This document shows, piece after piece, positions 39 through 17,511 of a DNA stretch of 32,627 nucleotides (positions within the stretch are counted from its first letter, which is position 1; each line of letters starts with the position of its first letter). Origin of the DNA: a virus; the IMG/VR virus record IMGVR_UViG_3300002835_000669, positions 1 through 32,627 of that record. One strand, written 5' to 3'. The translations under genes and the position numbers were made by a program. The notes under the pieces are model-generated. The model worked only from the letters and a program-made list of their open reading frames with translations. It had not been told where the DNA came from and searched no databases.

Positions 39-1088
39 TTACTGGATGGGAACCAGAGTATCGGAGGGATCAGTATCCACAATGTGTGGAGGGCGAGAAC
101 CATAGATCAGGAAAGATCGTAGCACCGCACCAGTGCCGTTGATGGCATCAAGATTGGTCAGAATATCCTCCAGTTGGTTGATACGGTTCTCAATCATCTT
201 GAGAACTGCAAGTCCATCCTTTGCGTGAGTAGTATTCACATAGAAGTTCAGGCGGGTTTTGACGCCACGAGCAGCATCTCGGAGGAAAGTGGGAAGGAAA
301 TCACGAATCCACACATCTTGACCTGCCTCAAACAGGCGATCAACAACATTAGTCACGATTTGATCGTTCTTATCAAGAATTACAATGTTGCAATCCTTGA
401 ATAGGCGAATCACCTGAGAACGAGTGTAGTTGGTGAGAAAAGAATTCTTCTCAGTGTTGTTGAAGATTGCCCTCTTCAGGTTGGTGCGAGTTAGGGAAGT
501 TTCGTTCTTGGCATACTTATCAACCCAAGAATCAACATCTTCCTGAGTCACAACCAGATCCTCCAGTTTCTGGCGTTGCACCCAAGCAATACCTCGTGCT
601 TTGTAGTCATCAAAAACAGAACTGGAACCATCGGGTTGTGGTTGGTGTAGAAGACCAACTTCATCCATCACATCACCTTCATCAAATCCAGGTTTGATGC
701 GATAGACATCAACGATCATCCAGGCATATCCGTTGTTGCAATACCACATCCAACGGTGGTTACCATTCAGCAACCAGTTCTCAAGTTCATTCGTTTCGGA
801 ATTCTCGAGAACGATGGGAGGAAGTTTACCTTGCTTGTATCCCTTCTCTAAGGATTTTGCAACGGTCTCATACACTTTTGCATCATTACCCTTGAATCGT
901 CCTACATTCTTTCGCAGTTTGAATGCACCAGTAGAAACGATTTCAGTGCGAACATATTCTGCAGTCTCGTATTCTGGGCGCACATAAGTTTCAATCTGTG
1001 CTTTCAGTTCATACAGAGAACTGTCTTTGGGGATAGCAACGTATTGCTGAGGAATTCGGATTCCTTGATTTAGTTTTTGAGTTTCCAT
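39..1088 (-). CDS. ParB/sulfiredoxin-like domain protein (349 aa)
   Basis: Around residues 95-125 there is a ParB-type core: a Pro-Pro-Ile-Val strand, then L-x-N-G-N-H-R-W followed by a hydrophobic strand ending V-D-V-Y-R. This matches the [D/N]GxHR nucleotide-binding turn of the ParB N-terminal/sulfiredoxin-like fold. The rest (about residues 150-349) is largely helical with no motif I recognise. I start it at the ATG at 1088 (METQKLNQ). The 31-codon extension to 1181 looks like untranslated leader and overlaps the sigma70-type promoter at 1153-1181. It lies downstream of the split methyltransferase on the same strand; ParB-like proteins often accompany phage methyltransferases, so a role in DNA modification or DNA binding is inferred. 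GC content is clearly higher (about 42-52% in lines counted by hand) than in the structural genes, which suggests a different origin. Whether it has nuclease or CTPase activity cannot be told. Confidence 0.6.
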   Translation of the reverse strand: METQKLNQGIRIPQQYVAIPKDSSLYELKAQIETYVRPEYETAEYVRTEIVSTGAFKLRKNVGRFKGNDAKVYETVAKSLEKGYKQGKLPPIVLENSETNELENWLLNGNHRWMWYCNNGYAWMIVDVYRIKPGFDEGDVMDEVGLLHQPQPDGSSSVFDDYKARGIAWVQRQKLEDLVVTQEDVDSWVDKYAKNETSLTRTNLKRAIFNNTEKNSFLTNYTRSQVIRLFKDCNIVILDKNDQIVTNVVDRLFEAGQDVWIRDFLPTFLRDAARGVKTRLNFYVNTTHAKDGLAVLKMIENRINQLEDILTNLDAINGTGAVLRSFLIYGSRPPHIVDTDPSDTLVPIQ

Positions 1089-1152
1089 AGTAAAAGAAAT
1101 TCGGCAGTGTGTCCATTTTGGGTTTCGGCGCCAGTGCCTCAACCACGAGATC

Positions 1153-1181
1153 AATATACGATGAAACCAGTGCCCCGTCAA
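1153..1181 (-). promoter_or_regulatory. Sigma70-type promoter for the ParB-like gene
   Basis: On the minus strand, TTGACG (1181-1176; 5/6 of the -35 consensus) and TATATT (1158-1153; 5/6 of the -10 consensus) are separated by exactly 17 bases. A start of transcription near 1146 would leave a leader of roughly 58 bases before the ATG at 1088. It reads as an early, host-polymerase promoter, unlike the NATAAATA boxes of the structural genes. Confidence 0.6.
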
Positions 1182-1193
1182 CCCCTGAACTCA

Positions 1194-1595
1194 TTAGAAA
1201 AACTTTTCAATACCGATAAGTTCTCCAAATGAATAATCATACTCTAATGCATCAGCACAAACATAGTGAGGATGATCTGTAGAAACCCCCACACGATCAC
1301 AAAGTTCCTTGTGATTATCCTCCATCAGTTCTACTGCATAGAGCATATGATTAATGACGTGCTCCTCTGAGTGATATTGTAGAAGTTTATTCTTCAGTGC
1401 AACAATAAAATTACCAGATCCTGCAGAGTTGTCTAGGAATGTGCTAGAAGGATCTTTCAACATTTCTTCTGGAATATCATTTACCATATTCTCAACAAGA
1501 TCCATCGGAGTAAAGACCTCTTGAGTCTCTTTAATCCGCTCATCAGATCTTTCAATTGTAGATCCAGTTTCAATATTATGTTTATTCTTTTTCAT
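1194..1595 (-). CDS. Adenine-specific DNA methyltransferase, SAM-binding half (motifs X-I-II-III)
   Basis: This 133-aa protein holds the AdoMet-binding half of an N6-adenine methyltransferase. Motif X-like E-V-F-T-P is at residues 26-30. Motif I, F-L-D-N-S-A-G-S-G-N-F, is at 53-63. A motif II-like acidic strand, Y-A-V-E-L-M-E-D-N, is at 86-94, and a motif III-like C-A-D-A-L with Asp115 follows. It stops where the catalytic (N/D)PPY motif would normally come. The missing motif is in the upstream ORF (1582-2166), which overlaps this one by 14 bases in a different frame. A purine-rich AGAAGAAAAGA precedes the ATG at 1595 and may serve as the ribosome site. Alone it should not be catalytic; it probably pairs with the upstream product. 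A decayed gene is less likely because all motifs on both sides are intact. Confidence 0.72.
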   Translation of the reverse strand: MKKNKHNIETGSTIERSDERIKETQEVFTPMDLVENMVNDIPEEMLKDPSSTFLDNSAGSGNFIVALKNKLLQYHSEEHVINHMLYAVELMEDNHKELCDRVGVSTDHPHYVCADALEYDYSFGELIGIEKFF

Positions 1596-2166
1596 TCTTT
1601 TCTTCTAGACATTGAATATAAGTTGAAATCAGATCATTCTTACCAAAGTGATATCTGCCATTACATTGATTTGCTGCCTCTCTGAATCTAGAAGCAAATT
1701 CTAGCAGATTATCTATAACTTCTGGATCCCTTACTTTGAGGAAATGATGTCCCTTTGCATAGTGAGTAAAGTTCTTTATTTTAACTCTACCACTTGGACC
1801 ACAACCATATTCACCTACAAAAACATCTGCTTCAAATCTCCTCTCATAAGGAAGAAACTCAAAGTCAGGATGTTCTTTGTGCATATGTATTCTACCCACA
1901 CCCACATCAAACCTAGATGTGTTTTTGACTTCCCAGTATTGCTTTACTGCACTAATACCATTCGGGAAAGTAGAGGGGTCTAGATCTTCATCTAGAACGC
2001 AATGTAGATGTGAATGAATCTTATTCAGTGATGATGGTTTTCTTACTGATGTTGGTAGAACTAACCAAACATTGTCCGATAACTCTGCGTTCTTGTTTAA
2101 GAATCTGATTGCTAGGTTTCCTCCAACACCATATGGAGGGTTACCGATACTTAAAGTAAACTTCAT
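1582..2166 (-). CDS. Adenine-specific DNA methyltransferase, catalytic half (NPPY plus likely target-recognition region)
   Basis: The protein (194 aa from ATG 2166) opens almost at once with the catalytic motif IV, G-N-P-P-Y-G, at residues 8-13. A motif V/VI-like region with L-P-T-S-V-R-K-P-S follows at 37-45, then a helical/strand segment that could be the target-recognition domain. There is no room for an AdoMet-binding motif I upstream, and none is seen within. Motif I lies in the next gene downstream, so the pair has the order IV-VIII, TRD, X-I-III, as in beta-class amino-methyltransferases, but split in two. A TTG at 2190 could lengthen the ORF, but the promoter at 2195-2224 would start transcription near 2188, so I chose the ATG at 2166 (M-K-F-T-L-S-I-G-N-P-P-Y, a common beginning for this strand). 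Target sequence unknown. Confidence 0.72.
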   Translation of the reverse strand: MKFTLSIGNPPYGVGGNLAIRFLNKNAELSDNVWLVLPTSVRKPSSLNKIHSHLHCVLDEDLDPSTFPNGISAVKQYWEVKNTSRFDVGVGRIHMHKEHPDFEFLPYERRFEADVFVGEYGCGPSGRVKIKNFTHYAKGHHFLKVRDPEVIDNLLEFASRFREAANQCNGRYHFGKNDLISTYIQCLEEKNEKE

Positions 2167-2409: not shown

Positions 2410-3051
2410 TTATCTCCAGCGAGGACCAACACACCATCCAACCAAACTTCTTCTAGTTCCTTTCTTTACTTTACGAACTCGGTGTCTAGTTCTTGAATCA
2501 AAAAGAATTATAGATCCTTGTTCTCTTGGAACAGTGTACATGAGATCATTATCATCTATTAATTGTACATCACCACCTTCATAAGAATTTGGATCAGATA
2601 GTTGAACTATGAATGAAAGTTTTCTGATAGATTCTGTATTTGCCTTCAAAAAATCATTAGAATCATTCTGAAGACTACTTTCATCAATAAAGCTACTTTT
2701 TGTGCTGCTCAATTCATATAATTGTGAAAATGAAGAGTCTACGTGCCAGTTATAAAATTCACCCTCTTCATATTGAGTGTATTGAATTGAGTCATTATCT
2801 ATTCCAGATAAGTCATATCTAAAATTTTCTTGATTTATTTTATCAATGTAATACCAAAGAAAACCACCTAACCAATGACTAGTTCCAATCCAAGTATTTT
2901 TGGATTTTCTCTTATTGTGGTCTATCAATCCACCAGTCAATGTAGATTCTTCAAATAAATCATCCGCTTTATTGTTTTTGAGATCTTTAATAATGATATC
3001 TATAATCTCTTGTGGAAGATTTGTGTTATACCAATATGATTGATATGCCAT
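2410..3051 (-). CDS. 2-oxoglutarate/Fe(II)-dependent oxygenase, prolyl-4-hydroxylase-like (213 aa)
   Basis: The double-stranded beta-helix iron site is complete. An H-x-D pair lies in N-W-H-V-D-S near residue 103, a distal His in R-T-R-H-R-V-R near residue 190, and an R-R-S-L-V-G-W segment near residue 203 supplies the Arg expected to bind 2-oxoglutarate. A Y-E-G-G-D-V-Q-L strand typical of P4H-like enzymes precedes the distal His. The family hydroxylates proteins or small molecules with O2 and 2-oxoglutarate; such genes are common in cyanophages but their substrates are unknown. It is the last gene before the terminator and follows the 665-aa fibre-like gene by 55 bases, so it is probably transcribed late with the tail genes. 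Modification of a phage structural protein is possible but is only inference. Confidence 0.8.
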   Translation of the reverse strand: MAYQSYWYNTNLPQEIIDIIIKDLKNNKADDLFEESTLTGGLIDHNKRKSKNTWIGTSHWLGGFLWYYIDKINQENFRYDLSGIDNDSIQYTQYEEGEFYNWHVDSSFSQLYELSSTKSSFIDESSLQNDSNDFLKANTESIRKLSFIVQLSDPNSYEGGDVQLIDDNDLMYTVPREQGSIILFDSRTRHRVRKVKKGTRRSLVGWCVGPRWR

Positions 3052-14239: not shown

Positions 14240-14858
14240 ACCATTGTTCCTTTTCCCATTTCAACCTTTTTTCAAGTTCTTTATCAAAGATCATCAAGTA
14301 CCTATGTTTTCTTGTTCTTTCTCTCCATTCACCTTCTTGCCCCTTTATAGGACCTCTAGAATGTTTAATAAATGATCCATCGGGTTGTTTAATCCAGAAG
14401 TCTGATTTCTTATCGGTCAGACCGTAGTATTGAAAATTGCAAGCTCTGTATATAACTCCAGTGTGGTGACCAGAGTCAGCGTAACTAAGAATAGCACGAA
14501 CTGAGGCATCTTTCTTAAATCTCCTAATGCAACGACTTACGAACCAGGATGTGATGTTGTATTCTTCTTTTTGTAAATCTGGGTGTATGCAAAGTCTGGA
14601 TAATTCATATATTCCCTCTTGTTGGTTTCTTTCTAAACCAAAAGCACCGACTGCTATTTCTGGGACGGGCAGGCCAGTAAAGACACAAGCACCCAGGCAA
14701 CCACCAACCCTAAGAATGTCAGAAACCGAGGATCTGAAAAGCCCATAGTTGAAACCAGATTTAAAATCTTTAGATTCGTCTTTAAGATAATGATGGGTAT
14801 AAAGAAGATGTTTGATGTCTTCCTTACCTACCCTATCTATGTAAAAATCTGATTTCAT
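14238..14858 (-). CDS. Mom-like DNA adenine-modification protein (GNAT fold), 206 aa
   Basis: The core matches phage Mu Mom-type proteins of the GNAT superfamily. Residues ~80-115 contain Y-E-L-S-R-L-C-I-H-P followed by N-I-T-S-W-F-V-S-R-C-I-R. Residues ~120-146 contain S-Y-A-D-x-G-H-H-T-G-V-I-Y-R-A-x-N-F-x-Y-Y-G. A basic R-K-H-R-Y-L-M-I-F-D-K end is at ~180-192. Mu Mom converts adenines in phage DNA to a carbamoylmethyl-type modified base and protects them from restriction; the same role is inferred here. The gene sits in a late-transcribed stretch, which fits the late expression of Mu mom, and ends in a hairpin that separates it from the giant fibre gene. An N-acetyltransferase acting on another substrate is the alternative. 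Start at ATG 14858, 10 bases after the preceding small gene. Confidence 0.68.
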   Translation of the reverse strand: MKSDFYIDRVGKEDIKHLLYTHHYLKDESKDFKSGFNYGLFRSSVSDILRVGGCLGACVFTGLPVPEIAVGAFGLERNQQEGIYELSRLCIHPDLQKEEYNITSWFVSRCIRRFKKDASVRAILSYADSGHHTGVIYRACNFQYYGLTDKKSDFWIKQPDGSFIKHSRGPIKGQEGEWRERTRKHRYLMIFDKELEKRLKWEKEQW

Positions 14859-15054: not shown

Positions 15055-15681
15055 TTAATTTGAATGATTTACGTTAGAATGACCCATAAATTGAGACATG
15101 CAAACTCTACCCAATTTTTTTCCCATATCTTCTGGATTCATTTTTACTTCAGAAACTTCATGATCAACACATGAAGGGAAAAGTATAAGTGAATTGTCTT
15201 CTACTTCTATTTTTAAATTGAAGTTTGGAAAAATTAAATCACCACCAGAAAATTTTTTAGGTTTTTTGAAAAACCAAGTCAAGCAAGTAAATGATGAAAT
15301 GTCGTAATGTTTTTTATAGTGATCTGAATTTTCATAATATGAAATTAACGTAGTATCCCAATTGATACATCGTAAACTATTATTAAAAATCCCAAAATCA
15401 TATTCATTTATTATGTTTACGATTGTCAAAAAAAGATTTCTGTTTATAGTTAAAATATTTGAAGTATTTCTGTCCAAATATAGATTATCTAAAAAAATTC
15501 CTTTGTTCTGTTTTAGGATAATTCCATCCTGAATTGCTGTTCCAGTTTTTTCTGGACCATCTATTATACGATAATTTAGGATAAATTCTAGTTCTTCCCA
15601 TATTAATTTTAATTCTTCATCTGAATAAAAATCAAAAATTCTAATATATGGAAATGGATCAGTATGAATATCAATTTCCAT
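15055..15681 (-). CDS. 2-oxoglutarate/Fe(II)-dependent oxygenase, P4H-like (208 aa)
   Basis: Iron ligands are visible: H-Y-D within K-K-H-Y-D-I-S near residue 125, a distal His in C-V-D-H-E-V near residue 172, and G-R-V-C-M-S near residue 195 with the 2-oxoglutarate-binding Arg. The F-S-G-G-D-L-I-F-P strand and the L-I-L-F-P-S strand complete the double-stranded beta-helix. The N-terminal F-P-Y-I-R-I-F-D-F-Y opening is typical of the family. Its start overlaps the last 11 bases of the 53-aa gene upstream, indicating translational coupling. It is strikingly AT-rich (about 20-32% GC in lines counted by hand), lower than nearby genes, suggesting recent acquisition. Substrate unknown; peptidyl-proline or a small metabolite are the usual options. 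Confidence 0.78.
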   Translation of the reverse strand: MEIDIHTDPFPYIRIFDFYSDEELKLIWEELEFILNYRIIDGPEKTGTAIQDGIILKQNKGIFLDNLYLDRNTSNILTINRNLFLTIVNIINEYDFGIFNNSLRCINWDTTLISYYENSDHYKKHYDISSFTCLTWFFKKPKKFSGGDLIFPNFNLKIEVEDNSLILFPSCVDHEVSEVKMNPEDMGKKLGRVCMSQFMGHSNVNHSN

Positions 15682-16836: not shown

Positions 16837-17511
16837 TTAATACCTCTCTAGATCTAACCACTGTGATGTATGTGGAATTGATTGTGAAATTTGATAGTGT
16901 TTTGGTTTGAGTGTGATTTTAATATCACCTGCGATAACATAACGAGGGTCTATGTCATCTTGATTTAATTCAGTATCAACTTTTAATGGTGATGGAAATG
17001 CCAATAAACTACCTTCTACCGGTGATATCGCATACCCTAAACAATTATATTTGTTTAGATTTTTTATCATACCACCATCATTGGAAAAATTAAAGATCCC
17101 TTGTGAGAGTTCATTCTGGTAGTTTCCGGATTCAAAGCAAACTACATCTGATTTGTCTTCAGTAGTTTTTAGATAATATCTAAAAGATATATCACTAGAC
17201 TTGTGATTATGATGATCTGTCCATCCAGTGTTACAGTCATAAGACTCTACCCAAGAACGAACAACGTGTAAATTTAATACATTTGGATCAGCACCAAGAA
17301 CAATCAAATAATTTTCTATGGAATTTTTAAGGGATTTAAAAAATTCCATATACTTAATATTCAAATGTAAGAAATAAAGATCTGGAAGACTGTATTCTCT
17401 ATTTCTTTCTTGTATTAATTTAATTTCTTCAAAATGATTTAATTTAAACTCTTCATGAGATTCAAATAAATCTTGCCCAATTGCAATGGGAAAAATTTCA
17501 TGTACTTTCAT
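16837..17511 (-). CDS. 2OG/Fe(II) oxygenase-fold protein, possibly inactive (224 aa)
   Basis: The overall plan matches the phage 2OG-Fe(II) oxygenase family. The N-terminal I-F-P-I-A-I-G resembles the usual L-F-P-x-P-I opening. There is a W-T-D-H-H-N-H-K-S-S-D segment at ~96-106 where the first iron ligands should be, then a Y-Y-L strand. An L-L-A-F-P-S-P-L strand is at ~166-175, and a D-P-R-Y-V-I-A-G-D strand with the expected Arg is near 188. However, the position after F-P-S-x-L where the distal iron-binding His is expected has Lys-Val. The protein may therefore be catalytically dead or use another ligand. It is preceded by the paralogous fibre-like genes and followed, 2 bases away, by the 67-aa gene. 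Confidence is moderate for the fold and lower for activity. Confidence 0.55.
   Translation of the reverse strand: MKVHEIFPIAIGQDLFESHEEFKLNHFEEIKLIQERNREYSLPDLYFLHLNIKYMEFFKSLKNSIENYLIVLGADPNVLNLHVVRSWVESYDCNTGWTDHHNHKSSDISFRYYLKTTEDKSDVVCFESGNYQNELSQGIFNFSNDGGMIKNLNKYNCLGYAISPVEGSLLAFPSPLKVDTELNQDDIDPRYVIAGDIKITLKPKHYQISQSIPHTSQWLDLERY

Follow-up and report, generated by a model that had tools for sequence, protein, structure and literature searches.

Two overlapping genes on the minus strand of a cyanophage-like genome fragment most likely (with a probability of about 0.77) encode the two chains of a single DNA amino-methyltransferase, which would act as a heterodimer and whose product would most likely be N6-methyladenine (m6A). 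The fragment, here called the window, is the whole 32.6 kb stretch of a virus record that was analysed, and is similar to the Kyanoviridae cyanophage P-SSM2 (Salacisavirus). One gene carries the catalytic NPPY motif (the NPPY chain), and the other carries the AdoMet-binding motifs (the X-I chain). This reading is built on the motifs themselves, their split between two genes, the conservation of both genes, their co-occurrence across phage genomes, and a natural fusion that joins the two halves.

The NPPY chain (1582..2166, minus strand; 194 aa) begins M-K-F-T-L-S-I-G-N-P-P-Y-G, with motif IV at residues 9-12, the presumed target-recognition region (TRD) thereafter, and no motif I in cis. The sole alternative start upstream of this open reading frame is a TTG that adds only 8 aa, so the chain has no room for motif I. 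It matches residues 92-285 of phrog_5172 (377 residues; E 1e-60), and N9, P10, P11, and Y12 are invariant in a 13-row alignment of its relatives. The X-I chain (1194..1595, minus strand; 133 aa) contains motif X (E26-V-F-T-P), motif I (F53-L-D-N-S-A-G-S-G-N-F63), motif II (E89 within L-Y-A-V-E-L-M-E-D-N), and an Asp in the D120 region as motif III, but lacks motif IV. Its full length is covered by a match to phrog_4376 (E 3e-74). The genes overlap by 14 nt in different frames (1582..1595, minus strand), an overlap that likely couples their translation. The coordinates and motif positions agree with those of the first-pass annotation, which had described a split and circularly permuted adenine methyltransferase here.

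The next gene downstream (39..1181, minus strand; phrog_27790, E 4e-7) appears to be ParB-like, judging from an NGNHRW motif, and probably lies outside the enzyme proper. A ParB-like gene stands in matching order in P-SSM2 (PSSM2_038), followed by a ResIII helicase, PSSM2_039, which lies two genes downstream of the pair. No restriction nuclease was recognised in the window. Elsewhere in the window, a Mom-family DNA hypermodification protein (14241-14858, minus strand; PF25680 E 5e-22, phrog_1384 E 5e-30) constitutes a second candidate DNA-modifying enzyme, and three proteins belong to the 2OG-Fe(II) oxygenase family (2413-3051, 15058-15681, and 16840-17511, minus strand).

By sequence, both halves of the pair are gamma/Eco57I-like. 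Among known structures, the X-I profile finds the gamma-class enzymes M.BseCI (11-116, E 6e-4), CamA (22-89), BsaXI, and HsdM, in each case through their N-terminal part; the NPPY-half profile found no relative by sequence in the PDB. The window X-I chain matches Pfam N6_Mtase at E 0.002 with a score of 17.8, under the cut-off of 20.4. Sequence matches in Pfam, PADLOC, NCBIfam, and the PDB are to the gamma, Eco57I, and Alw26I families, not to the beta class. The PADLOC type II profiles are matched by the X-I chain near their N-termini and by NPPY chains further along, as in PDLC03273, which the window X-I chain matches at 42-90 and the Bellamy NPPY chain at 105-413. The X-I chain thus corresponds to the first part of a canonical gamma enzyme and the NPPY chain to the second. 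Motif X (EVFTP) and motif I (DxxxGxG) are gamma-related by sequence and motif IV has the NPP(Y/F/W) form of that class, but the gamma-class order X-I-IV-TRD in one catalytic domain is absent, the window having two chains with the NPPY gene first.

A single-chain version of the pair exists in nature. The Aeromonas phages Aeh1, Ah1, PX29, and phiAS5 encode a fusion of about 415 aa (family phrog_11371) with its halves in the same order as the window genes, NPPY being at residue 9 and motifs X-I at about 286-370. The window X-I chain matches the C-terminal end of phrog_11371 (275-361, E 1e-13), and the NPPY ends of the window chain and the fusion match over 47 columns (hhalign 95.5%, E 1e-8). The fusion was modelled with AlphaFold2 as a stand-in for the window pair, to which it is a fused relative at about 27% identity; the model is of moderate confidence (pLDDT 67, pTM 0.62) and rises to about 90 or higher near NPPY and motif I. 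M.MboIIA aligns through both halves of the model (Z 10.4, 148 residues, 3.3 A, model 1-371), and the beta-class enzymes M.BceJIV, RsrI, and CcrM likewise align through both in sequence order, whereas gamma enzymes align with one half each (CamA with model 1-249, BsaXI with model 286-403). Foldseek E-values for the model are weak, the best being 3e-3. Read plainly, the model suggests that the two halves of the fusion pack into one methyltransferase sheet with the beta-class connection order. The fusion, joining the halves in the same order, and the alignment of its model through both uphold the proposal of a split N6-adenine-type methyltransferase with partner halves.

Circular permutation, the other element of the first-pass annotation, stands as a description of NPPY-first gene order and falls as a description of the fold, since the halves are gamma/Eco57I-like and separate chains have no order. 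The ends of the two chains lie between motifs III and IV and between the TRD and motif X, and the pair is neither permuted nor canonical. Similarly, the beta-class order IV-TRD-X-I is present in the window as gene order and occurs as a single chain only in the Aeromonas fusion, but the closest sequence relatives are gamma and not beta. True permutation belongs to that fusion only. Single-chain relatives of the NPPY half, rV5 ORF100 and GAP32_519, have the canonical order, and permutation as a property of the fold was rejected. None of the relatives examined shows a half fused to a different intact methyltransferase.

The split arrangement is not an accident. In IMG/VR, scanning for the NPPY chain yielded 17 loci and scanning for the X-I chain 80 (of 183), both genes recurring at many sites, and in nearly all of the 80 an NPPY gene lies directly upstream of the X-I gene and overlaps it. 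This upstream protein is of another type in L084, L086, and L087. Overlaps in relatives measure 8-44 nt, mostly 14 or 20, and window-type loci always keep one frame offset. The pair is also present in the isolates P-SSM2 (PSSM2_036 and PSSM2_037), P-SSM5, S-CAM7, and S-SKS1, where its members are annotated as hypothetical proteins; UniProt gives the P-SSM2 X-I chain the name of an adenine-specific methylase domain protein, so that existing annotation covers one half and not the enzyme. Besides the pair, P-SSM2 encodes dam and a beta-class enzyme. Both genes are under purifying selection, the median dN/dS over 32 loci being 0.104 (NPPY half) and 0.107 (X-I half) at dS above 1. The evolutionary distances of the two halves correlate at 0.70, which is weak evidence because neighbouring genes have a common tree in any case. 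The arrangement is widespread in Kyanoviridae and is also found in Straboviridae (split in Klebsiella phages, fused in Aeromonas phages), Lak phages, and bacteria, and the earlier view that it is unusual for a T4-like phage does not hold. An assembly rearrangement, also envisaged there, is excluded by the many independent records and was rejected on conservation and dN/dS as well.

The X-I chain is better conserved than its partner chains. In L041, L118, L120, and L122, one X-I gene follows two different NPPY genes, which are of the Aeromonas-fusion type and the window type in L118, L120, and L041, and of another type and the window type in L122. Further partner types occur in Bellamy, MA01, L084, and L086. 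S-CAM7 0910CC49 has two NPPY/X-I pairs in one genome (L126, L099; genes 055-057 and 076-077), one of which follows a 704-aa protein annotated as a restriction subunit. In isolate C25 of the Synechococcus phage ACG-2014f, the X-I gene at 35.9 kb has no NPPY neighbour, and the sole protein found with an NPPY-type start is that of gene 187 (301 aa, NPPY at residue 9) at 137.2 kb, placing the halves 101 kb apart. Isolate C24 combines a single X-I gene (51) with three NPPY chains (53, 183, 184). The probable target-recognition part of the gene 53 chain (L100:4321-5334) is duplicated in tandem.

A tblastn search with the ACG-2014f 187 and S-CAM7 056 chains found 35 records, all of Synechococcus phages and all among the 38 Synechococcus records that have the X-I chain. 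The remaining three (S-SKS1 twice, KU686213) have a window-type NPPY chain. Of the signs that the X-I chain acts together with NPPY chains, whether adjacent or distant, this co-occurrence is the strongest, though the 38 records are not independent events because 26 ACG-2014f records share ancestry. It is conceivable, at somewhat less than even odds, that one AdoMet-loading chain is a shared subunit borrowed in trans by several interchangeable catalytic and recognition chains, in which case acquisition of an NPPY-TRD chain alone could give a phage or bacterium a new methylation specificity.

Many partner NPPY chains carry some 60 N-terminal residues (IxGDPxGxHSL...ENIWVWEDDPTH...INIVED) that are absent from the window NPPY chain and that resemble a degenerate beta1-beta3 half without motif X or GxG. 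The AF2 model of this stretch is of low confidence (about 45), yet aligns with M.TaqI in canonical order. A degenerate Rossmann-like N-terminus of this kind (GDPxGxHSL ... VWEDDPTH) is common to otherwise different partners in L041, L118, L120, L121, L122, L123, L086, L100, and L126. As modelled, this pseudo-half would be a point against the two-chain reading in the chains that have it. Another variant is found in L084, where a 1138-aa helicase-methyltransferase with an NYPY motif (L084:576-3989) is directly followed by a separate intact X-I gene. The stretch FLVINALSGSIPYAI in the 1138-aa protein may be a decayed motif I; hhalign of the X-I chain against it gave a probability of 0.4%, and against the rV5 motif X-I region 5%, neither of which is significant.

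A ResIII helicase is often linked to the pair in relatives. The loci L118:875-5129, L120:875-5138, L121, L122, and L123 consist of a ResIII helicase of about 708 aa, one or two NPPY chains, the X-I chain, and then an SF2 helicase, and are apparent phage-borne restriction-modification-like islands; the N-terminus of the 708-aa helicase looks GIY-YIG-like. In Klebsiella phage PKO111 (L105:1991-3926), gp114 joins a GIY-YIG nuclease domain (PF22945 E 3e-15) to an NPPF-TRD chain and overlaps by 14 nt gp115, a 153-aa X-I chain; the arrangement resembles a Type IIG enzyme that has been split, here in a T4-like phage. The GIY-YIG part of gp114 also matches PADLOC PD-T4-3 (E 6e-11). Phage Lak-B3 encodes NPPY and X-I on separate proteins. 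Among bacteria, Streptococcus, Lactobacillus, and Lactococcus have an X-I-only gene of 220-250 aa beside a ResIII + Eco57I protein of about 1460 aa with NPPY near residue 1120, and the X-I gene of Janibacter, Rhodococcus, Gordonia, and Corynebacterium is accompanied by two others, one of about 1100 aa that matches PADLOC REase_MTase_IIG (E 1e-21) and one for an NPPY-first protein of about 345 aa. Profile comparison shows clear homology between the bacterial X-I chain and that of the window (hhalign 99%, E 2e-18); among 198 genomes sampled from the order that includes Streptococcus, 13 encode this chain.

Several other explanations would account for parts of this picture. The two proteins might act apart, the 133-aa chain as an AdoMet-binding decoy or regulator (e.g. 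against host restriction-modification) and the NPPY chain as a DNA-binding protein or inactive remnant. This would suit the ACG-2014f isolates, most of which have no window-type NPPY neighbour to the X-I chain, and the NPPY chains with their own degenerate cis half. However, an NPPY chain is present somewhere in every cyanophage record with the X-I chain, NPPY is invariant, a natural fusion joins the halves, and bacterial relatives pair the X-I chain with Eco57I-type NPPY domains, all of which makes separate functions unlikely. A split methyltransferase acting on something other than DNA adenine, whether by making m4C or by modifying RNA, is about as unlikely. A few gamma enzymes do make m4C, adenine being the main target of the class (PMC3874165), and in the models the NPPY half with its N-terminal pseudo-half resembles the KsgA/Erm rRNA adenine methyltransferases in fold, but the sequence affinities are to the DNA N6_Mtase/Eco57I families and to loci that carry ResIII helicases.

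Ribosomal frameshifting in the overlap could yield one protein, making the enzyme really a single permuted chain; the constant frame offset across window-type overlaps of 8-44 nt would fit this, and the Aeromonas fusion shows that a single chain can exist. Since L084, L086, and S-CAM7 have 1-nt or 4-nt overlaps with another offset, the halves are parted by a gap of several hundred bases in MA01, an intervening gene in L119, and 101 kb in ACG-2014f C25, the X-I chain retains its own start codon, and no conserved slippery site was noticed, frameshift fusion is very improbable and was rejected. Decay of a broken methyltransferase into pieces that no longer function is the remaining explanation, frameshifts often being the origin of split genes and the Pfam score of the window X-I chain falling just below the cut-off (17.8 vs 20.4). 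It is contradicted by a dN/dS of about 0.10 for both halves at dS above 1, by invariant catalytic residues, and by the same architecture across phage families and bacterial phyla; a pseudogene was rejected on conservation and dN/dS, and its likelihood is close to negligible.

Under the preferred reading of one enzyme in two chains, the 133-aa chain would fold as the AdoMet-binding half (motifs X, I-III; strands beta1-beta3), and the 194-aa chain would supply the catalytic half (NPPY, strands beta4-beta7) together with target recognition. Coupled translation would allow the two to associate, with the NPPY slot facing the AdoMet held by the other chain. The 194-aa chain would then bind DNA and flip the target base into the NPPY slot, and the methyl group would be transferred across the interface. 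The X-I chain may serve as the conserved subunit for different NPPY chains, in some phages for two or more in a single genome and over a distance. Where the locus includes a helicase, the pair probably provides the modification function of a restriction-modification-like island borne by the phage. The window pair would be a modification enzyme that probably marks phage DNA at some target, perhaps with a helicase-based partner beyond the window.

The few known natural split DNA methyltransferases are of the m5C kind. M.AquI and M.EcoHK31I are natural two-chain m5C methyltransferases, and the M.AquI chains are active together (as cited in PMC3404938). Like the window pair, they form one methyltransferase from two chains, but they make m5C and are cut within the variable region or have only motif IX on the small chain, and they are not known to have a shared subunit. 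Natural circularly permuted m5C enzymes are also known (PMC5944983). Gamma-class enzymes (M.TaqI, M.BseCI, CamA, HsdM, the Eco57I family) share motifs X, I-III, and NPPY with the window chains by sequence, the chains being their N- and C-terminal parts. These enzymes are one chain or an intact M with S, whereas the M domain in the window is divided, the break falling between motifs III and IV and target recognition staying on the NPPY side. A review of the class describes M as intact, with S either fused to it or on its own, and nowhere uses the word 'split' (PMC3874165).

Beta-class enzymes (M.MboIIA, M.RsrI, CcrM) have the same order, an NPPY half and then an X-I half, and the Aeromonas fusion aligns with them end to end, but they are single chains and not the closest to the window by sequence. 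Closer in organisation are the bacterial split pairs (Streptococcus, Lactobacillus, Actinobacteria; 214-250 aa X-I + helicase-Eco57I), in which a homologous X-I-only subunit lies beside an NPPY partner; this partner, however, is fused to or adjoins a ResIII helicase, and the only PADLOC labels for such chains are MTase_II and REase_MTase_IIG. Type ISP and Type IIG enzymes join a helicase and/or nuclease to a gamma methyltransferase, as do the cyanophage 708-aa helicase loci, MA01, and PKO111, but they are single chains holding motif I, whereas the split loci have motif I on a separate small chain. Literature searches confined to papers free of subscription turned up no description of a gamma-type adenine methyltransferase that is divided between motifs III and IV and has recognition on the same chain as its NPPY half.

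A widespread adenine type with its cofactor site on one chain and its catalytic motif and recognition on another would mean that the methyltransferase fold is divisible mid-fold in nature. Annotation pipelines score each half singly and so miss the enzyme, and a split enzyme would account for many 'hypothetical proteins' of phages and bacteria, both motif-I-only proteins of 130-250 aa and NPPY-first proteins without an AdoMet site. The halves would be ready-made parts for split-enzyme tools, and the ACG-2014f layout offers a direct test bed for the sharing of one subunit among several catalytic chains.
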